Positions 3,777 to 17,574 of a DNA stretch of 22,977 nucleotides are shown one piece after another. Origin of the DNA: a virus; IMG/VR virus record IMGVR_UViG_3300008113_005418, positions 1 to 22,977 of that record, one strand, 5' to 3'. Position numbers and translations under genes: made by a program. The number at the start of each line of letters is the position of its first letter. Position 1 is the first letter of the stretch. The notes under the pieces were generated by a model. It saw nothing but the letters and a program-made list of their open reading frames with translations. It made no database searches and was not told the DNA's origin.

Positions 3777-3805
3777 AGTATACATGACCCGGACAAAATT
3801 TACAA
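3777..3805 (-). promoter_or_regulatory. Possible sigma70 promoter TTGTAA-17-TATACT
   Basis: The minus strand has TTGTAA (3805..3800), a 17-base spacer and TATACT (3782..3777). The -35 box has 4 of 6 matches and overlaps the stop codon of the upstream gene. It is a weaker call than the promoters at 9084, 9914 and 17568. Confidence 0.35.
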
Positions 3806-5188
3806 CCTGCGCTCGCTCAAATAGTCTTCGTCTATGGGTTGATTGTCCCGGCGTTGGTAACTGGCTGTCATGCCTGCTCCCGCACCAGAGGTATTGGCTG
3901 TAGTGCCTGTGGCTGACACAGTTTCTAGTGTTGCTGCCCAGCCTTGATTTTCTTCTACATCTGCTGATTCAAATTGATCAAAATCCTTGGCTCGACGCTG
4001 CTCACTGCCCTGGGCAGGAAATTGTGGTTTTGTTTGGGCGGTCTGTGCTGTTGACTTTTGAATTTTTTGAGCAGCAGCGTCTTGTGCCTTAGACATCAAA
4101 AAGTTTTTGGTACGAGCATCCAAGGTCCTACCATCTTCTACTGCACGTTGAACCAGCACTTTGTAATATTTGTTGGTGAGTTCGACTTGTTGTGCGTTGA
4201 TATCGGGCATGCTTTGAGCACCAGAGCCCATGGCAGCCAGCGCCATGGCACCACCTGCCACAACATCTTTCCAGCCCTCAGCTACAGAAGTCCGATCGGT
4301 TGCAATAGTTTTGATCTGCTTGGCAATTGCAAGTGCTTGCTCTCCCTGGCGCTGGGTCATGGCCTGTTTGAACTCAGCAATCAGTTTGGTCAGGGCATGG
4401 CGCTCAGCATCGCTGATGTTGCCCACACGATAGCCTTCTAGGGCCCGCATGATTCGATCAGCATTGTACATTTTCACAATGTCTCGCGCTTTTAAGTAAG
4501 CACCTGTGGCCAAGCCTGCGCCCATAGCAGCCAACACACTCAGTATTTCGCCGTAAAATTGAGCATCTGACATGAATTCCACGCTTTCCGCCACATCCGA
4601 TGCACCACCAATGGCAGCGTCTAGGAGTTTGACCACTGTGGCCGCAAGCTTGGCATTGCCCTGTGTGCGTGGATACAGGCTCATGACCAAGGCAGTTTTT
4701 CTGCGTTGGTCTAGTGTAGGCCAGGCCGTGCGTATTTGTGTGGCCGATGTCATGCCCGGACCAAACTCCACTGTGGGCAAGTAGGCCATGTAGGCATGTT
4801 TTGAAAAAGGTTCTAGCTTTTTGGCACCCAACAAGGGCTGCAAGTAACTGGGGGAGCCATCACGTTTGACGCCCCCTGCTTGTGGTGGCTTTGTAGCGTC
4901 TTTTTCTGATCGCACAAAAATCAGTACATCTCGGTTGGGGTCAAATCGAGCAGTAATTTCCTCAGCACGGAAAGGGCTTTTGACCTGCACAAAATGTCCT
5001 GGTTCCACACCAGCTAGTTTGGCCAGTTTTTCTTTTACTGGGAAAGGGAATGGTCTTGCACTGGTGTCGTTGGTTGCTGCCACATACACTTCGGCGTCAG
5101 GAAATGCTCGCTGTGCACTTTGATACAGAGCCAGATGCCCTGCGTGAAATGGATGAAAACCTCCCGGCATGATTACTACTGTGGCCAT
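3800..5188 (-). CDS. Nucleotidylyltransferase domain fused to a long alpha-helical, Ala/Gln-rich phage region
   Basis: The product has 462 residues. The N-terminus MATVVIMPGG-FHPFHAGH (HxGH motif at residues 15-18) and TSATQIR (147-153) are the two hallmark motifs of the HIGH nucleotidylyltransferase superfamily (cytidylyl-, NMN- or phosphopantetheine-adenylyltransferase-like), so residues 1 to about 190 form the enzyme domain. The rest (about 195-462) is unlike any enzyme I recognise: helical, rich in Ala, Gln and Lys, with two VAE[SG] tetrapeptides (199-202, 302-305) and a Thr/Gly-rich tail. It may be a virion-associated segment. The substrate is unknown. The start ATG 5188 follows CTGTT with no Shine-Dalgarno, and a GCTAAATA octamer lies 5 bases upstream. 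A second, small nucleotidylyltransferase occurs at 14482. Confidence 0.8.
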   Translation of the reverse strand: MATVVIMPGGFHPFHAGHLALYQSAQRAFPDAEVYVAATNDTSARPFPFPVKEKLAKLAGVEPGHFVQVKSPFRAEEITARFDPNRDVLIFVRSEKDATKPPQAGGVKRDGSPSYLQPLLGAKKLEPFSKHAYMAYLPTVEFGPGMTSATQIRTAWPTLDQRRKTALVMSLYPRTQGNAKLAATVVKLLDAAIGGASDVAESVEFMSDAQFYGEILSVLAAMGAGLATGAYLKARDIVKMYNADRIMRALEGYRVGNISDAERHALTKLIAEFKQAMTQRQGEQALAIAKQIKTIATDRTSVAEGWKDVVAGGAMALAAMGSGAQSMPDINAQQVELTNKYYKVLVQRAVEDGRTLDARTKNFLMSKAQDAAAQKIQKSTAQTAQTKPQFPAQGSEQRRAKDFDQFESADVEENQGWAATLETVSATGTTANTSGAGAGMTASYQRRDNQPIDEDYLSERRL

Positions 5189-6167: not shown

Positions 6168-6800
6168 TTATTTAGCCTGTATGGGCAGGGTCTGGCGAAT
6201 TGCCCCGGGCATGACCATTTCGATCATGGTCACATCCAAAGGGCTGTTGTGTTCAATATAACTGTGTCGAGCGAACGGATAGCGGTGACGCCCTAATCCC
6301 AGTCTCATGCGAGTGGTGTAATCTAGGTTAAAATAGTCCCCGCGGCTGATCACAAACTGCAAAAATTGCTGGCCCTGTTCGGGATCCATTCGCTTTTCCC
6401 TAAAGTAGCTGCGATACTGATACTTGGGATTGCGGCGCAACAACACCCCTGCGGGCTGTGTGACCAAGGCCTTGCGATAACTGCCCACAGTTGCATGTGG
6501 AATCTTTTGAATTCTCTCATAATCGTCAGCATTGTTGGTGTAAACAAACATGTTGTTCCAACTGGAGGTCAACTTGATCTTGGGACCTAGATCGATTAGA
6601 CCCTGGGTCACTTCCAACACACTCACCAGTTCGACCTCAGGTGTGTGCCAAGAGTGCTGCATCATGTTGTTGTACTGACTGGTCACTCGCTCAGGGGTCA
6701 GCGCACCAATGTATCGAGCGCCCAGGTAGTGCATCTCCACAGCATAGCAATACTGATTGTGATACAGCCGACTACGATGTTCATGGTGTGGTTGTGGCAT
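6168..6800 (-). CDS. Hypothetical phage protein rich in Tyr, His and Arg
   Basis: I place the start at ATG 6800 (MPQPHHEHRSR), one base after the stop of clpA (TAACATG) and behind GGAGCC. A longer frame from 6833 would add 11 residues overlapping clpA. The 210-residue product has no motif I recognise. Notable parts are the aromatic segment LYHNQYCYAVEMHYLGARYIG near the N-terminus, a WNNMFVYTNNADDYERI stretch, and a basic RMRLGLGRHRYPFARHSY stretch near 170-187. It is probably co-transcribed with clpA. The stop codon TAA is embedded in a GCTAAATA octamer. Function unknown. Confidence 0.7.
   Translation of the reverse strand: MPQPHHEHRSRLYHNQYCYAVEMHYLGARYIGALTPERVTSQYNNMMQHSWHTPEVELVSVLEVTQGLIDLGPKIKLTSSWNNMFVYTNNADDYERIQKIPHATVGSYRKALVTQPAGVLLRRNPKYQYRSYFREKRMDPEQGQQFLQFVISRGDYFNLDYTTRMRLGLGRHRYPFARHSYIEHNSPLDVTMIEMVMPGAIRQTLPIQAK
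6169..6176 (-). promoter_or_regulatory. GCTAAATA octamer overlapping a stop codon
   Basis: The minus strand GCTAAATA includes the last codons of the upstream gene (GCT AAA TAA). It ends 7 bases before the ATG at 6161. The identical octamer is at 5194-5201 and 20913-20920. The coding overlap makes chance likely here. Confidence 0.3.
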
Positions 6801-6801
6801 G

Positions 6802-9060
6802 TTAGGCTCCGGGGAAACGAATGATTCCGTCATCGTCTACTACCGGAATCTCGTGTGCAACCACGTCAAACACCACATCTTCTCCGGACATGTCAGCTGC
6901 AATGTCGCAGTTGCTGAGTCGATCAAACAAGATCCGCTTGCTAAGTGGCACACGGATCAACTGATCGATCTTGCGGCTCAGAGGTCGTGCACCCATCTTG
7001 GCATCATAGCCCTTGTCAGCCAGCATGTCTACCACAGCTTCGGTCAGGGTCAAGCGGATGTTTTTGTTGGCCAGACTTGTCTGCAGTTCTTGTGTGAACT
7101 TCAGCACCACTTTCTTGATGGCCAGGGTATCCAGGCGGGAGAATTTCACAATCTGATCGATACGGTTACGCATTTCAGGTTTGAAGAACTCCCGGAGTGC
7201 TCGTTCGTCTTCGCCGGTCTTTTCCTGTGATCCAAAGCCAATCATGTTGCCTTCGGCGGCAGCAGCACCCAGGTTAGATGTCAGGATAATGATGGAGTTC
7301 TTGACGTTGACCTTTTTGCCATTGCTGGAGGTCAACACACCTTCGTCCAGCATCTGCAGCAGGATGTTGGATACATCAGGGTGTGCTTTTTCAATCTCGT
7401 CAAACAGGATGATGCTAAACGGGTTCTTGCTGATATCCGAGATCAGTTTGCCGCCACCCACACTGCCGTCCTCAAAGCCCACATAGCCCGGAGGTGCACC
7501 AATCAAACTTGATACACTGTGGCGTTCCTGGAACTCACTCATGTCATATTTCAGCAAGGGCATGTCCAGGTTGGCACTCAGTAGTCGAGCCAGTTCGGTC
7601 TTGCCTGTGCCTGTTGGGCCCAAGAACAAGAAACTGGCCATGGGTCGCTTTTCGTTGCTGATGCCAGCAAAGCTGATGTACACACGATCCAGCACAGCAT
7701 CCACAGCAGCATCTTGACCGTACAGCTTTTGCTTGATGTTTGATTCCAGTTCCACAATCTTGGCCGATCGCTCGTTCTGCAGTTTGTCTGTTGGCACACC
7801 AGTCATGCGAGCCACCTGCTGTTCGATCATGTCACGGGTGATAGTGACTGTGCCCGCATCTTTCACACGCTCCCTAGCACAAGCAGCGTCAATGATGTCG
7901 ATACTTTTGTCAGGATTTTTGCGGTCATGAATGTAACGATTGGCCAGTTCCACTGCAGTGGTCATAGCTTCGGTGTCAATTAACACATTGTGAAACTGCT
8001 CCAGGCGTGGGCTGAGTCCAATCAGGATCTGTTCTGTGGTAGCAGTATCAGGTTCGTCAATGGCCAGGCGATAAAAACGACGCATGAGTGCACGGTCCTT
8101 TTCAAAGCTTTCGTAGAACTCTTCCCAGGTGGTTGACGCCACAATCTTGAGACTGCCCCGGGTGATCGCCGGCTTCAGCATGTTGGCAAAATCCAGTCCT
8201 GCACTGGAGCCTGCTCCTGCACCTTTCATAGTGTGTGCTTCGTCCACAAACAAGATACAGTTCTTTTTGGCTTCTAAGGCTGCAATCACAGCCTTGAACT
8301 TTTCTTCGAACTCGCCACGATATTTAGATCCTGCTAGGAGTGAACCAATTTCCAAGCTCCAGACTTCATGTCCTTTTAGAAACTCAGGCACACGCCCTGC
8401 AATGATTTCCTGGGCTAGGCCGTCCACAATGTGTGTCTTGCCCACACCTGGATCGCCTACCATTAGCACGTTGGCCTTGAAGCGTCGAGCCAACACAGTG
8501 ATCATTTCTTCCAGTTCTTTACCACGGCCAATCATGGGCTCCAGCTGATTCTTTTCGGCACGAGCAGTGAGGCTGGTGCAGTACTCGGTCAGCACTTCGT
8601 CGGCCTGCTGAGTGCTCATTTTGACATCTGAAGGTTTGTAGTTCTTTTGCCAGAACTCCACAAATTCTGCTTTCTTCATGCCATATTTCAGCATGTAGTA
8701 TTGTGCATGACTGTTGCCTTCGCTCATGATTGACAGATACAGATCAATCACGCTGAGTGCCCTACGACCAGTAAACATCACCTGCACGTTGGCACGGTTG
8801 AAAATTCTCTCCAGAGCCTGGGTCTTTTTGGGTGTGTCCACATTGCTTTTGACCAGGCTCACCAGGCTTGTGATGTAAGCATCTAGTTCCAGGTCCATCT
8901 GATCCACTGCTACGCCAAAAGCGTCGGCTGTTTTGCGAAATGGAGCAAACCGGATTATGCTCAACAACAGGTGTTCTGTGGTCACATATTCGTGTTGTTT
9001 TTGCTGTGCAATTTTCACAGCCTGATCCACAATGTGTTCAATTTCGGGAGTGGGGGTCAT
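6802..9060 (-). CDS. clpA: ClpA-like AAA+ unfoldase with intact ClpP-binding-type loop
   Basis: The product has 752 residues, full length for ClpA (about 758 in E. coli). Order: an N-domain with the Clp repeat start EYVTTEHLLLSI (24-35); AAA-1 with Walker A GDPGVGKT (202-209), Walker B ILFVDEAH (269-276) and arginine finger region RALMRRF (323-329); AAA-2 with Walker A GPTGTGKT (481-488), Walker B ILFDEIEKAH (551-560) and sensor 2 GARPLSRK (690-697). The ClpB/Hsp104 coiled-coil middle domain is absent. MIGFGSQ (606-612) aligns with the IGL loop by which E. coli ClpA docks on ClpP, and the following FFKPEMRNRID matches the same spot in ClpA. This points to a phage adaptor-type unfoldase that could use host ClpP. 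ATG 9060 has AAAGGA upstream and a sigma70 promoter at 9084-9112. The bacterial ClpS/ClpA pair is not seen here. Confidence 0.93.
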   Translation of the reverse strand: MTPTPEIEHIVDQAVKIAQQKQHEYVTTEHLLLSIIRFAPFRKTADAFGVAVDQMDLELDAYITSLVSLVKSNVDTPKKTQALERIFNRANVQVMFTGRRALSVIDLYLSIMSEGNSHAQYYMLKYGMKKAEFVEFWQKNYKPSDVKMSTQQADEVLTEYCTSLTARAEKNQLEPMIGRGKELEEMITVLARRFKANVLMVGDPGVGKTHIVDGLAQEIIAGRVPEFLKGHEVWSLEIGSLLAGSKYRGEFEEKFKAVIAALEAKKNCILFVDEAHTMKGAGAGSSAGLDFANMLKPAITRGSLKIVASTTWEEFYESFEKDRALMRRFYRLAIDEPDTATTEQILIGLSPRLEQFHNVLIDTEAMTTAVELANRYIHDRKNPDKSIDIIDAACARERVKDAGTVTITRDMIEQQVARMTGVPTDKLQNERSAKIVELESNIKQKLYGQDAAVDAVLDRVYISFAGISNEKRPMASFLFLGPTGTGKTELARLLSANLDMPLLKYDMSEFQERHSVSSLIGAPPGYVGFEDGSVGGGKLISDISKNPFSIILFDEIEKAHPDVSNILLQMLDEGVLTSSNGKKVNVKNSIIILTSNLGAAAAEGNMIGFGSQEKTGEDERALREFFKPEMRNRIDQIVKFSRLDTLAIKKVVLKFTQELQTSLANKNIRLTLTEAVVDMLADKGYDAKMGARPLSRKIDQLIRVPLSKRILFDRLSNCDIAADMSGEDVVFDVVAHEIPVVDDDGIIRFPGA

Positions 9061-9126: not shown

Positions 9127-9906
9127 TTATGATCGGTGTTGTTGTATTGCTGTGACTATTTCGGGTGCGATGATTTTGGGAATTTGAGCCTGCATGCGAA
9201 TCATTAGGTCACCTTTTTGCCCATGTCGATCTTGTATGCCATGTCCACGCAGGCGCATCACTGTGCCGGGTTGGGTACCAGCCGGCACCCGAACCACTAG
9301 ATTGTGACCCAGTATGTTGGTGACTTCTACTTCGGCACCCAAAATCATGTCCCAGATGCTGATCCTGTGTTCGGTATGTAGATTTAGACCTTCTCGACGC
9401 CACTGTGCCATGGGCTGTATTCGAAACTGCACCACCAGGTCCATGCCCCCAGGTGCAACTCCACCGTACTGCACCTGGTCTCCGTCGTCAATGCCTCGAG
9501 GCACCTCAATGGCCACTGTGCTGGAGCCAGCAGAGGTGCTGACATTCACAGCCCGGCTTCCGCCCTGTGCTACATCTTGTAGGCTTACCCAGATGGTCAT
9601 TCTCACATGATTGCGTCGAGACTGTTGCGGTTGTCCAAATTGTTGCCCGAACATCTGCCCAAACATGTCGTGCATGTTGAATCCACCGCCACCGGGAAAT
9701 CCCGAAAACTGTGGACGGGGATTGTCGTATTCAGCTCGTCGTGCGTCGTCGCCCAGCACACCATATGCTTCTTGTATTTCCTGAAACTTGACAGTGTCGC
9801 CGCCTTTGTCCGGATGAAATTTTGATGCAAGCTTTCTATACGCCTGCTTTATTTCGTCAGGCAAAGCCGACTTGTCTACACCTAGTATTTGATAATAGTT
9901 TTTCAC
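9127..9906 (-). CDS. dnaJ: DnaJ/CbpA-like J-domain co-chaperone without zinc finger
   Basis: The product has 259 residues. The J domain fills residues 2-62: [16 protein letters not shown], the essential HPD (31-33), and [14 protein letters not shown] Gly/Phe-rich linker (68-93) follows, then two C-terminal beta-sandwich substrate-binding domains (about 100-259; [30 protein letters not shown]). The four CxxCxGxG zinc motifs of class A DnaJ are absent, so this is class B, CbpA-like. It should stimulate host DnaK. The only start that keeps the J domain is GTG 9906, with no Shine-Dalgarno. A near-consensus sigma70 promoter (9914-9942) would start transcription almost at this codon. It precedes clpA, forming a chaperone/unfoldase pair. 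Confidence 0.92.
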
Positions 9907-11657: not shown

Positions 11658-12122
11658 TTAGGCAATGATTCCGGGTTCGTAAACGGTCTTGCCGTTTTTC
11701 TTGTAGGCAGTCATGACCTGGCACTTGAGGTTGCCGGGATCATAGCTCACATGTACCCAACCTGAGTCAGGAACACCTGGAGTATAGAATTCCAAAATCA
11801 ATTGTGTAAACTTGAGATTGCTTTTGATGTATTCAGCCAGTTCAGCGTTGGCCACACCGGGAATTTCAATGTCAGCAGCTTGACCTTTGCAGTGATCGCT
11901 GGTGCGTGAACCGCCCACAGCAGCGTTGACGTTGGGATGACGGAAGCCGGAGTTGACCTTGATACCCTTCTTGTAGTGATCACGAATAGGCTGCAGAACT
12001 TTTTCGGCCAGGACCTTGAGGTTGGCAGTTTCTGCAGCACCAGGTGTGTTGTCTAGGTTCTGACGCAGAGCAGTTTCGCTCTTGATCATTTCACTCAGAC
12101 TAAAATTTTCGGTTAGTTTCAT
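11658..12122 (-). CDS. M15 family peptidoglycan peptidase, probable endolysin
   Basis: The product has 154 residues with no signal peptide. It has the M15A/VanY-like zinc peptidase motifs: NSGFRHPNVN (57-66), SDHCKGQAAD (75-84, zinc ligands H77 and D84, the S-x-H-x-x-G-x-A-x-D pattern) and GWVHVSY (121-127, zinc ligand H124). It should cleave D-Ala-containing peptide cross-links of murein. It heads the lysis group with the spanins and holin downstream. ATG 12122 has an excellent AAGGAGC site 6-7 bases upstream and a GATAAATA late-type octamer at 12149-12156. A tail-associated role is less likely given the spanin/holin context. Confidence 0.9.
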   Translation of the reverse strand: MKLTENFSLSEMIKSETALRQNLDNTPGAAETANLKVLAEKVLQPIRDHYKKGIKVNSGFRHPNVNAAVGGSRTSDHCKGQAADIEIPGVANAELAEYIKSNLKFTQLILEFYTPGVPDSGWVHVSYDPGNLKCQVMTAYKKNGKTVYEPGIIA

Positions 12123-12148
12123 GGAAAGCTCCTTATGTTATATAAGAA

Positions 12149-12156
12149 TATTTATC
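12149..12156 (-). promoter_or_regulatory. Late-promoter-like GATAAATA for the lysis cassette
   Basis: The minus strand reads GATAAATA, 7 of 8 to TATAAATA. It would start transcription about 20 bases before the endolysin ATG, leaving room for the AAGGAG site. It is the best placed of the late-type octamers and drives genes that must be late. Confidence 0.65.
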
Positions 12157-12208
12157 CCATGCTCTGCCCGAAAACTGGTCACATAATTGTTGTATCATAA
12201 GTATTGCC

Positions 12209-13429
12209 ATGAACGTATTGATACTAACTCCTGACGCAGTAGGCAGCACATTGCTACAAAGAATGCTAACAATTTACATGCAGTTGCATGAGTTTGATCG
12301 CCCAGTGATTAATTTACACGAGTTGACCAATGGACTTGCACGTTACTACAGCCCCGAATTTAACCAGGAGTTGGTTGGCAAAAAAGAAGTAAAAAACTGG
12401 GGATATTATCAAACCCTTGAAGAAATTGCCCAGTTACTCAGCAGCGTGGATCATTACAAAACGTCGAGACTGGCACATTATCATATTCGTCAACGCGGAG
12501 ACACAGTTGAACAACAGATTCCTTTTTATCAGTATCTTAATGAAAATTTTTATGTAGTTGCTTGCAGGCGTGCCAATGTGTTTGAACATGCTCTTAGTAT
12601 GACACTTAACAAAATTACCAAAAAACTAAACGTCTATGACGCTTACGAAAAAATTGACACTTTTTATGAAATATACCGTTCAGGAGTAAATTTAGATTCT
12701 ACAGTGTTTGTTGGTCAACTAAATGCCTATCGCCAATATATAGAATGGAGCGAGCAACATTTTAATATCAGTTCTTATTTTAACTACGAAAAAGATGTTC
12801 CTAGATTAGAAGAATTCATTTTAGATCTTCCGGTGTTTAGCAGTCAGCCCAATAGAATCACCTGGGAGAAAAATTTTGGATTATCATTTAACGACTGGAA
12901 TAGATTGCATTATGCCCGCAGTAATTTAAACAGTTTGTCACTGGAATCACGACAAGAATTTGGTAATTTGGCTCTAGAGCATGCTAAGGTAGTGTCTGAA
13001 TATCAACAACTTGCTCCTGAGCACTGGCCTCCCGTAAATTCATCTGACGATTTTAACAAACTTCCAACTGCAATAAAAAATCAATGGGCACAGAATTTTA
13101 TCAGTCAGCAAGGTATAATTCCTTTACTAGACAGCAAGACACAACAAAATTTAATGCAGTACAATAATGGATATGTGTCTGCGCAAAAAACTATAAATCA
13201 AATGGTGGATCTAGGTATTATAATCAACGGCCCACCAATTAAAAAACAAACCCTGGCAGAGAAAAGAAAAATAATAAAAAATTACCAAGAATTACTTGCA
13301 GTGTACAATGCCTGGGCGGAGAAAAATTCAAATATTGCTAGTGTATTAGACGAAAAAAATTTGTTAGATCAAGGTCAACAAGAAAAACAATTCTGGAACA
13401 AATCATTAACCTCGTTGATCAGCCGTTGA
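12209..13429 (+). CDS. Sulfotransferase-like protein (P-loop, PAPS-type), AT-rich
   Basis: The product has 406 residues. The N-terminus NVLILTPDAVGSTLLQRML has a strand then a P-loop-like turn (7-16) and helix, like the 5'-PSB loop of sulfotransferases. ACRRANVFEHALSM (118-131) fits the 3'-phosphate-binding motif (R...S). The C-terminal half is helical and charged, without recognised domain. It would transfer sulfate from PAPS, if the fold holds; the acceptor is unknown. It is on plus, against its neighbours, and visibly more AT-rich than the lysis genes. Its 3' end overlaps the convergent SGNH gene by 11 bases. No Shine-Dalgarno precedes the ATG. Confidence 0.7.
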   Translation: MNVLILTPDAVGSTLLQRMLTIYMQLHEFDRPVINLHELTNGLARYYSPEFNQELVGKKEVKNWGYYQTLEEIAQLLSSVDHYKTSRLAHYHIRQRGDTVEQQIPFYQYLNENFYVVACRRANVFEHALSMTLNKITKKLNVYDAYEKIDTFYEIYRSGVNLDSTVFVGQLNAYRQYIEWSEQHFNISSYFNYEKDVPRLEEFILDLPVFSSQPNRITWEKNFGLSFNDWNRLHYARSNLNSLSLESRQEFGNLALEHAKVVSEYQQLAPEHWPPVNSSDDFNKLPTAIKNQWAQNFISQQGIIPLLDSKTQQNLMQYNNGYVSAQKTINQMVDLGIIINGPPIKKQTLAEKRKIIKNYQELLAVYNAWAEKNSNIASVLDEKNLLDQGQQEKQFWNKSLTSLISR

Positions 13430-14285
13430 AATTTTCAAGTATCTTCTGAACAAAAAAATTACTAGTGACAAGGTCAAAATGATGGTAATCTCTAGCATAG
13501 TCTAGATTTGACAACTGAAGTAATTGATTCTGTCTATAAAAATTATTTGATAAAAACCAAATATCAAAATTTACCTGTGTAAACACACTTCTAGATTCTT
13601 TTTTTACATGATCAGGCAACTGATTGAATTCAGTCAGTGTAGACGGAAAAGAGTCAGGCCAAGAAACATCTTTAATGTTGTTCCAACTTCTTGTTACGTG
13701 CTCAAAAATCTCGTTCACATCAGAATTTGGTATTATTCCATTGAATATGGTAGTGCCTGCATTGGATTTTTTTAAACTGATATAACAATTAATAAAATTT
13801 GTTATATTGTCAGATTCTGAATCGTATTTGTCAGATCTCACTCTTCTGTCTTCGTCGGGTAAGTTAGTGTCAGGCAACTCTCTACGATGACCATAAGACC
13901 ATAACACTACCATTTGTTTAGGCGCAACTTCTTTAATAATTTGCTGAGATCGACGACTAATCCAGTTATTACTGGCACCGTCCATGCTGACATTGATGCA
14001 TCGACGACCAGTTGCAGCAGACAGCACCTGCGGCCATGTAAAATTGTACGGGCTACCAACGCCCACAGTAAAACTGTCACCCACACACCATATGGAGTTT
14101 TTCAACTCACTTAAAGATTGAGGCCATTCCGCGTCTCTAAATCCTCGACTGTTATAGTTGTATTCAACATGATGCGGATATGATCGAAAGTGATCTTTGT
14201 TCAAACATTCTTGTAAACAATCTATACCTGAAAATTTCCATTTTTTATTTTTTCTTGATTGCAGAATCAAATCACCTAATATCAT
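13419..14285 (-). CDS. SGNH/GDSL-type hydrolase-like protein
   Basis: I choose ATG 14285, which overlaps the stop of the DUF2061 gene as ATGA; a TTG at 14300 would add five residues. The product has 288 residues. CVGDSFTVGVG (67-77) contains the GDS nucleophile block, DGASNN carries the block III G-x-x-N oxyanion residues, and RDYHHF (265-270) gives the C-terminal D-x-x-H. So the Ser/Asp/His set of an esterase or lipase-like SGNH enzyme looks complete. It is the last gene of the coupled 13.4-17.6 kb cassette and, like the opposing sulfotransferase gene, is AT-rich. It could remove acyl groups from a surface glycan. Confidence 0.75.
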   Translation of the reverse strand: MILGDLILQSRKNKKWKFSGIDCLQECLNKDHFRSYPHHVEYNYNSRGFRDAEWPQSLSELKNSIWCVGDSFTVGVGSPYNFTWPQVLSAATGRRCINVSMDGASNNWISRRSQQIIKEVAPKQMVVLWSYGHRRELPDTNLPDEDRRVRSDKYDSESDNITNFINCYISLKKSNAGTTIFNGIIPNSDVNEIFEHVTRSWNNIKDVSWPDSFPSTLTEFNQLPDHVKKESRSVFTQVNFDIWFLSNNFYRQNQLLQLSNLDYARDYHHFDLVTSNFFVQKILENFNG

Positions 14286-14482
14286 TGTTGACCCCAGCAA
14301 ATTTTGTTCCAGATGCGTTCGTGCGCATAATAAAGTATGGTATTGGTAACCATCTGTGCAAGCCCAATTACACCAGCCACGGCAAAATTACCGGTCAACA
14401 AATATGCAATCAAGAATGTGGCACCGGACCCAGTGATGCGCCAACTGATGGTTTTGACCAAGCTTCTGCGTGGTGAGTCCAT
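14282..14482 (-). CDS. DUF2061 family small membrane protein
   Basis: The product has 66 residues: a basic start (SPRRSLVKTISWRITGS), a hydrophobic segment FLIAYLLTG (about 23-31), a second one from AVAGVIGLAQMV, and the end TILYYAHERIWNKICWG. The K-[AT]-x-[ST]-WR-x-x-[AG]-[ST] start and YYxHERxW end match DUF2061 as I recall it. It would be an inner-membrane protein of unknown function. Its start overlaps the stop of the nucleotidylyltransferase gene as TAATG, and its stop overlaps the SGNH start, so it belongs to the coupled cassette. Confidence 0.82.
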   Translation of the reverse strand: MDSPRRSLVKTISWRITGSGATFLIAYLLTGNFAVAGVIGLAQMVTNTILYYAHERIWNKICWGQQ

Positions 14483-14892
14483 TACAGTTTGCCCGCAGCT
14501 CGTAACTCGGCACGTATTTGAGTGGCAGAAATTGAGTGAATTTCTTCGCCTAGATCATGCTGTGAGAATGTGTAGCCTACCCCGCGGCCGTAGCTGATGT
14601 CCACAATGTTGGGCACCTGCATGATGATATAATCCTCGTTGTAGACAAATCCTTCCGCAGCCAAAGCATCAACAATGTTGGCCTTGACAGTGTCTAGGTC
14701 AAACGGATTGTCTGTCTGTGCAGCAGTGCGCCCAGCGCCAGCATCCTGCCCCACAATGCCACCAACGTCACGAATCTGAATACACACTTGCCCAGTTTCC
14801 ATCAAGGCTTTTTTAAACAGTGCAGTGTGTCCTGGGTGCCAAGGTTGCCACCGGCCCAACATCTGTGTAGTGGGTCGTTTCCAATCAAACAT
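14482..14892 (-). CDS. Small nucleotidylyltransferase (HIGH superfamily)
   Basis: The product has 136 residues, near the minimal size for this fold. GRWQPWHPGHTALF (13-26) is the Rossmann HxGH signature and ISATQIRAEL (121-130) the second active-site motif. The WQPWHPGH version and ISATQIR resemble NMN adenylyltransferase (NadM) and ATP-sulfurylase-type families. In marine phages I recall such proteins being named cytidylyl- or adenylyltransferases. The middle region is shorter and has VGGIVGQDAGAGRT. It overlaps the end of the kinase gene by 8 bases, so the two enzymes are probably made together, possibly acting on the same substrate. Confidence 0.8.
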   Translation of the reverse strand: MFDWKRPTTQMLGRWQPWHPGHTALFKKALMETGQVCIQIRDVGGIVGQDAGAGRTAAQTDNPFDLDTVKANIVDALAAEGFVYNEDYIIMQVPNIVDISYGRGVGYTFSQHDLGEEIHSISATQIRAELRAAGKL

Positions 14893-16605: not shown

Positions 16606-17574
16606 TCAATCAAACTTCATTTTTTGCACATACGGGAACCATTTTTTACGCAGTTCAGTCAAGTGCTTTCTCACACCTTCGGGAGTATGCTCTGCTGGCA
16701 CAGTAAACATCAAGTTCTCGTCAAAGAACTGTTTGGCTTCGGGGCTGCGAATAGCAGCAACAAACTGCCGGTTGTAGTGGTCCACTTGATTTCTAGGAGT
16801 TCCTGGCGGCATGGCAATGGCCCAGGCAGCATACACGTTGAGTCCAGGCACAGTTTCTTGCCACAGTGGAACATCGGGGATACGAGCCAGGCGCTGTTCA
16901 CCAGCCAGTGCAATGTATTTGACCTTGCCGCCTTTGACCAAGCCATAGGCCACTGCAGTGGGCAAGATACCAAATTCCACATGTCCCCCAGCCACGTCAT
17001 TCACCGCCTGTGCTGGACCTTTATACATCACGCTGCTGACCAGTTGGCGATTGCCTTGGCCTTTGTCCATGAGATATTCAAACACCAGTTTGTGTGCACC
17101 TGCGCCCAGACCAAATGTGATGGGTTGCTGGGTGTTTTTGATGCGAGCCAGCAACTCTTTCGGAGTGTTGGTAGGACTGTTGATGTTGGCCACCACAGCC
17201 AGTGGGCTCTTGGCAATAGTGGTCACAAACTCCATGTCAAATGGATTGAATTTGATCTGATCAGGATACCAGTGGTCAACGGCTGTGAACACACCCTGGT
17301 GACTGGTGACATACAAATTGTCGCCTCGGGGCTCAAGCTTGGTAAACCAGTTCAGGGCAACCACTTCATCTGCTCCTGGACGATTTAGAACCACATAGCT
17401 GGTGCCAGGATTTTGCTTTTCCACAATGGCTGCAACTGCTCTAAAGCTGACTTCGTTGCCAGATCCAGGACCAAAACCTGTGGTCACCGTCACAGTGCGT
17501 GGTGGTTCAAAAGCATGTGCTGCTGTGCCCAAAACAACAGCAGCAGCAGCAATAAGTAATTTTTTCATTGACAT
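16606..17574 (-). CDS. tctC: TctC/Bug-family periplasmic substrate-binding protein
   Basis: The product has 322 residues. A clear Sec signal peptide (MSMKKLLIAAAAVVLGTAAHA, cleavage after Ala21) is followed by a complete Bug (tripartite tricarboxylate transporter) binding protein. Landmarks are the start VTVTTGFGPGSGNEVSFR, the YKGPAQAVNDVAGGHVEFG region near 180-200, and LARIPDVPLWQETVPGL (about 230-246) followed by MPPGTPRNQ. Typical members bind citrate, C4-dicarboxylates or aromatic acids; the ligand here cannot be told. ATG 17574 has AAGGAG (17580-17585) with good spacing. No TctA/TctB membrane genes are visible, so it would depend on the host's. A bacterial-type transport gene in a phage operon is unusual. 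Confidence 0.92.
   Translation of the reverse strand: MSMKKLLIAAAAVVLGTAAHAFEPPRTVTVTTGFGPGSGNEVSFRAVAAIVEKQNPGTSYVVLNRPGADEVVALNWFTKLEPRGDNLYVTSHQGVFTAVDHWYPDQIKFNPFDMEFVTTIAKSPLAVVANINSPTNTPKELLARIKNTQQPITFGLGAGAHKLVFEYLMDKGQGNRQLVSSVMYKGPAQAVNDVAGGHVEFGILPTAVAYGLVKGGKVKYIALAGEQRLARIPDVPLWQETVPGLNVYAAWAIAMPPGTPRNQVDHYNRQFVAAIRSPEAKQFFDENLMFTVPAEHTPEGVRKHLTELRKKWFPYVQKMKFD

Follow-up and report, generated by a model that had tools for sequence, protein, structure and literature searches.

A clpA-like phage gene with a retained putative docking loop, proposed as the ATPase of a phage-borne ClpAP(S) protease

The clpA-like gene and its neighbours

The window, by which we mean the whole 22,977-base stretch of DNA analysed here, carries a clpA-like gene on its minus strand (Table 1). 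The gene opens with an ATG at 9060, with AAGGAA a short way upstream, and closes with a stop codon at 6802–6804; the initial annotation had placed a gene at 6802–9060, and these coordinates proved correct, with a product of 752 aa. No near-identity match to the window as a whole was found among phage records.

Table 1. Features of the clpA-like locus, in window coordinates
Feature	Coordinates	Strand	Details and basis
clpA-like gene	6802..9060	-	752 aa, Hsp100, two AAA+ modules, phrog_4871
N-terminal domain, ClpA-like, residues ~1–140	8641..9060	-	sequence and model
D1 Walker A, GDPGVGKT, residues 202–209	8434..8457	-	sequence motif
D1 pore loop, KYRG, residues 246–249	8314..8325	-	sequence motif
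D2 Walker A, GPTGTGKT, residues 481–488	7597..7620	-	sequence motif
D2 pore loop, GYVG, residues 525–528	7477..7488	-	sequence motif
IGF tripeptide, residues 607–609, of the putative ClpP-docking loop (~599–616)	7234..7242	-	alignment, conservation, pLDDT
dnaJ/cbpA-like co-chaperone gene, 66 bp upstream of clpA	9127..9906	-	PF00226 and PF01556
221-aa gene of unknown function, overlapping the clpA 3′ end	6168..6833	-	ORF and Pfam search

Sequence comparison confirmed the product as a full-length ClpA-type Hsp100. It matches phrog_4871, labelled ‘ATP-dependent protease’, at full length (residues 5–732 of 752, E 1.8e-234, 782 bits), and its best PDB match by sequence is E. coli ClpA. The NCBIfam ClpA model TIGR02639 scored best of all models, yet at 777 bits against an equivalog cut-off of 993, which is a naming threshold, so the model does not class the protein as an equivalog of bacterial ClpA. 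Walker A and Walker B motifs are intact in both AAA+ modules and a GARPL sensor is also found; of the Pfam Clp_N repeats the first alone passes (residues 14–62). In phmmer, residues 6–716 align in a single continuous stretch with residues 5–726 of E. coli ClpA, whereas ClpB matches break into two parts; judged from these alignments, the phage protein lacks the ClpB/Hsp104 middle domain, as had been claimed at the outset. An AlphaFold2 model (mean pLDDT 75, pTM 0.42) is good for the order of the elements and for loop disorder, not for domain arrangement.

Compared with E. coli ClpA (PDB 1KSF, 1R6B, 6UQE, 7UIV), the phage protein has the same domain order, two AAA+ modules and an N-domain, as well as like KYR and GYVG pore loops and an IGL/IGF loop. 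The two differ in sequence (~40% identity), in the loop tripeptide (IGF in the phage, IGL in E. coli) and in gene context, the phage gene lying in a dnaJ operon and the E. coli gene beside clpS. The window protein belongs to a kind already known, the phrog_4871 proteins of many jumbo phages; in PA5oct, Atu_ph07, RaK2 and GAP32, for example, these go under the name ClpA or ‘ATP-dependent protease’. The identity of the window protein to those of named phages is 34–40%.

The dnaJ/cbpA-like gene is the probable operon partner of clpA. It lies upstream of clpA in all 80 window-clade loci, and clpA is likewise directly downstream of dnaJ in PA5oct and Atu_ph07. The pairing is missing from SCTP-2 and from the RaK2-like phages; in the latter, clpA is located among tail and virion genes and, unlike in the window, the docking loops are mostly degenerate. 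In Sinorhizobium phage Phosso (L084:6545–10307) dnaJ and clpA are separated by a peptide deformylase gene; an enzyme of this kind uncovers N-termini and would fit ClpS-type recognition. On the other side of clpA, a 221-aa ORF occurs in the nearest sizeable relative at the position matching the 221-aa gene of the window.

Farther off in the window, a minus-strand gene at 16606–17574 encodes a TctC-type receptor of a tripartite tricarboxylate transporter (PF03401, E 1.5e-27), possibly a metabolic gene of host origin in a phage fragment. Positions 12000–14000 have a GC content of 0.34–0.38, compared with ~0.50, and may be a recent acquisition; the ORFs of this stretch, at 12209–13429 (plus strand) and 13419–14300 (minus strand), have no known Pfam family. 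Two minus-strand genes, at 3800–5188 and 14482–14892, encode proteins with cytidylyltransferase-like starts (PGGFHPFHAGH and LGRWQPWHPGH, respectively), and only the former passes in Pfam.

The putative ClpP-docking loop and the origin of the gene

Residues 606–612 of the phage ClpA read MIGFGSQ, exactly as numbered in the initial annotation, which had taken them for the counterpart of the ClpA IGL loop. Tripeptides of this kind occur three times in the protein, at residues 347, 527 and 607, so the bare tripeptide is weak evidence and carries little meaning; position and conservation carry the weight. The alignment bore out the assignment. IGF at 607–609 aligns with IGL at 617–619 of E. coli ClpA, and E. 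coli ClpB has no such motif at the aligned position. I607, G608 and F609 never change across 25 aligned relatives, in a setting where most adjacent residues do, and the loop is kept in all 80 IMG/VR relatives, as IGF in 75 and VGF in 5. In the AlphaFold2 model residues 600–616, which link a D2 strand to a helix, fall below a pLDDT of 50; this fits a flexible docking loop and does not by itself prove exposure. From the alignment with E. coli ClpA, the conservation among the 80 relatives and the flexible model, we regard the putative docking loop as genuine and retained. In solved structures IGL/IGF loops dock into clefts of the ClpP ring (PMC7707817; PMC7112952), and bacterial ClpP pockets take both IGF and IGL (PMC7707817). 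The E. coli ClpX loop is IGF, the same as that of the phage ClpA.

In the tree, phage ClpAs fall into a single 40-row clade (SH-aLRT 99), which groups with bacterial ClpA and not with ClpB or ClpC. It joins two Gammaproteobacterial ClpAs, those of E. coli and Acinetobacter (support 93), among few bacterial rows. A recent bacterial donor was sought by genome scan and rejected: two short contigs aside, no bacterial relative exceeded ~41% identity. Given the single phage clade and the lack of a close bacterial relative, the phage ClpA probably represents a long-standing phage lineage, as opposed to a gene captured recently. The two exceptions are GTDB MAG contigs of 3.5 and 4.8 kb (L269 and L270), whose ClpAs fall inside the phage clade; these are probably phage contigs binned into bacterial MAGs. 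The opposite case was met in Acinetobacter phage MD-2021a (L089), which was discarded as a relative when its contig was seen to resemble a bacterial chromosome (rpiA, argC, clpS-clpA); its ClpA was handled as bacterial, and the record indicates that the phage collection includes host sequence.

ClpP, ClpS and ClpX in ClpA-bearing phages

Records that bear ClpA usually bear its partners too. ClpP (PF00574) was found in 22 of 25 such records and ClpS (PF02617) in 20 of 25, each including all ten named phages, although one of the ten ClpS matches, that of XaC1, falls under the Pfam cut-off. In a second set, which includes many fragments, ClpP turned up in 18 of 27 records and ClpS in 10 of 24. 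ClpX exceeded the cut-off in 13 of 21 records, none of them in the RaK2 group. Some large ClpA contigs (187–270 kb) had no detected ClpP. As a control we took seven large or classic phages without ClpA (phiKZ, PhiPA3, SPN3US, phiR1-37, T4, KVP40 and G): ClpS was found in 0/7, and canonical ClpP in Bacillus phage G alone, adjoining a ClpX-like ORF. Phage ClpA and ClpP show correlated patristic distances (Mantel r 0.58), with the ClpP tree the more mixed of the two.

No clpP was found within the window. Its nearest sizeable relative, a 98.9-kb contig (G041) that shares the window gene order and has a ClpA 89% identical, carries clpX, hsp20, clpS, clpP, a second clpP-like gene and the dnaJ-clpA pair; its ClpP retains the full catalytic triad and most of the docking pocket. 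At one of its loci (L355, G041:12500–17500) clpX, a 90-aa ORF, the Hsp20 gene and clpS are consecutive; several further relatives have clpX and clpS ~1–3 kb apart.

The functional residues of these partners were compared at ClpP pocket and ClpS adaptor positions that we take from established knowledge of the E. coli proteins. Every canonical phage ClpP keeps the Ser97/His122/Asp171 triad. In the window clade the ClpP pocket is largely E. coli-like (L48, F49 or Y49, Y62, F82, I90, L114, R192), with positions 60 and 112 variable, and the ClpS rows retain N34, D35, T38, H66, E79 and K84. ClpA loops in the RaK2 group are IGV, LGM or MNM (XaC1 has VGF), the ClpP pocket is altered and several ClpS residues are lost. 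Salicola phage SCTP-2 (L086, L145) has IGY in both ClpA and ClpX, along with an altered phage ClpP pocket.

Across 38 ClpA–ClpP pairs, ClpP R192 is lost in 6/6 pairs with a non-canonical ClpA loop and in 3/32 with a canonical one, a raw association with a Fisher value of 3e-5. We do not take this as proof of loop–pocket coevolution: on the trees it reduces to two or three independent changes, and it is not significant once relatedness is allowed for. Pocket positions are modestly enriched among the changed ClpP positions (p 0.03); at the same time many non-pocket positions change in the loop-degenerate lineages, and some of them, such as N64, E141 and I121, rank above R192. With so few independent changes, the sequences make joint change of loop and pocket suggestive only.

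A second ClpP-like gene was noted ~2–3 kb from clpP in eight contigs (L110:1354–1956 in G001, and in G002, G003, G004, G006, G013, G014 and G041). Its product keeps Ser-His-Asp and has lost the docking pocket (F49H/Y, Y62M, F82S, loss of R192); it could join ClpP as a subunit of a mixed ring or act as a protease in its own right.

Proposed role and alternatives

We propose that the product of the window gene is the ATPase component of a ClpAP(S) protease borne by the phage, and put the probability of this at roughly 60%. A ClpA hexamer would take substrates at its N-domain, directly or via a phage ClpS adaptor, and the adjacent DnaJ, with host DnaK, would perhaps hand substrates over. The substrate would be threaded through the D1 and D2 pores, IGF loops would anchor the hexamer in clefts on the apical face of a ring of ClpP, most probably a phage-encoded one, and the chain would be passed into ClpP for degradation. 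The window itself contributes intact ATPase and pore motifs, the conserved loop and the dnaJ-clpA pair, all read from its sequence; in close relatives we see clpP and clpS genes with catalytic residues intact. From these we infer the formation of the hexamer, the docking, the identity of the ClpP and the degradation of proteins. We infer, too, that the window phage carries clpP and clpS, as both would lie outside this 23-kb fragment.

The initial annotation had suggested that the phage may steer host ClpP to chosen substrates and not just refold proteins. The second half of this held up: for a ClpA-type protein with a kept docking loop, ClpP-linked degradation is likelier than refolding alone. 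The assumed partner did not fare as well, because every one of the ten named ClpA phages tested encodes a ClpP of its own, as do most sizeable contigs and the nearest sizeable relative. Docking of phage ClpA on the ClpP of the host, to turn that protease on selected substrates, is accordingly an improbable account, even if it draws on real observations: the loop is the canonical IGF found in E. coli ClpX, bacterial pockets accept IGF and IGL alike (PMC7707817), some large ClpA records have no ClpP, and neither does the window. Against it, ClpA phages usually encode ClpS as well as ClpP, and in the RaK2 group and SCTP-2 the loops have drifted from bacterial IGF/IGL with the phage ClpP pocket changed too. 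Since IGF is a standard loop, host ClpP would probably accept it too, and is a possible second or sole partner. The phage ClpP, for its part, could serve ClpX and not ClpA, as ClpX is also encoded in the clade.

Two further accounts do without a ClpA–ClpP pair. The protein might be a ClpP-independent remodelling chaperone, working with DnaJ (and host DnaK) on aggregates or virion assembly, its loop a relic. The dnaJ neighbour, constant across the window clade, the Hsp20 gene by clpS in a relative and the degenerate loops across most of the RaK2 group speak for this, and jumbo-phage papers propose virion assembly or aggregate clearance (PMC7824862 and PMC6102473). We think it distinctly unlikely. 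The ClpB middle domain docks DnaK, and the phage ClpA has no such domain; an IGF that stays invariant as the loop around it varies points to selection on docking, and phages with drifted loops still have a phage ClpP. Least credible to us is an ATPase of the virion or of structural assembly, in which case the ClpP-like proteins of the phages would be head-maturation proteases and not ClpA partners. It would comport with the clpA position among tail and virion genes in RaK2-like phages and with PHROGs, which groups ClpP-like proteins with head maturation proteases. Yet canonical ClpP of the window clade scores 311 bits with the bacterial ClpP model NF001368, which clears the 249-bit cut-off of that model, and a far poorer 101 bits with the ClpP-related head-maturation model, where 120 would be needed; it also keeps an apical pocket needless for a head protease. 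Neighbours of ClpA in PA5oct are annotated as structural by mass spectrometry, while ClpA is not.

The proposed phage-borne protease resembles the bacterial ClpAPS N-degron protease in that all three components co-occur in relatives of the window, with the catalytic and most adaptor residues kept in its clade. It differs in being phage-encoded and in that clpA is not beside clpS. It also differs in having no leucyl/phenylalanyl transferase (Aat), which was found in 0/21 records, so the likeness stops short of a full N-degron pathway.

Components of such a system have been listed before. For a single genome, that of Agrobacterium phage Atu_ph07, the published description lists ClpX, ClpA, ClpB, ClpP, ClpS and DnaJ, which makes up the same Clp set; the passages concerned do not address the docking loop, the pocket of ClpP or whether ClpA, ClpP and ClpS occur jointly across phages (PMC6102473). 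A jumbo-phage review casts ClpA as a translocase that possibly helps virions assemble; to ClpS it gives the role of adaptor to the ClpAP of the host, in phages said to have ClpS instead of ClpP (PMC7824862). The genome of its ClpS example, phage CBB (AMM43882.1, L361), also encodes ClpA and a ClpP-like gene. In the open-access literature we found component lists only, and no description of phage-encoded ClpAP or ClpAPS as one machine.

The window gene itself adds to a known kind, and the interesting part is the system-level reading. Phage ClpA is usually annotated alone; gene content in the genomes examined suggests that the ClpA, ClpP and ClpS parts belong together as a phage-encoded protease. 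More tentatively, at somewhat less than even odds, many large phages may carry a complete, self-sufficient Clp system (ClpA, ClpX, ClpP, ClpS, DnaJ and Hsp20), whose loop and pocket would in some lineages have drifted jointly from the host pair, yielding a viral protease that works with an adaptor of its own on substrates peculiar to it. An old annotation thereby becomes a testable question, namely which host or phage proteins the virus degrades with its own Clp machine, and whether defence proteins are among the targets.
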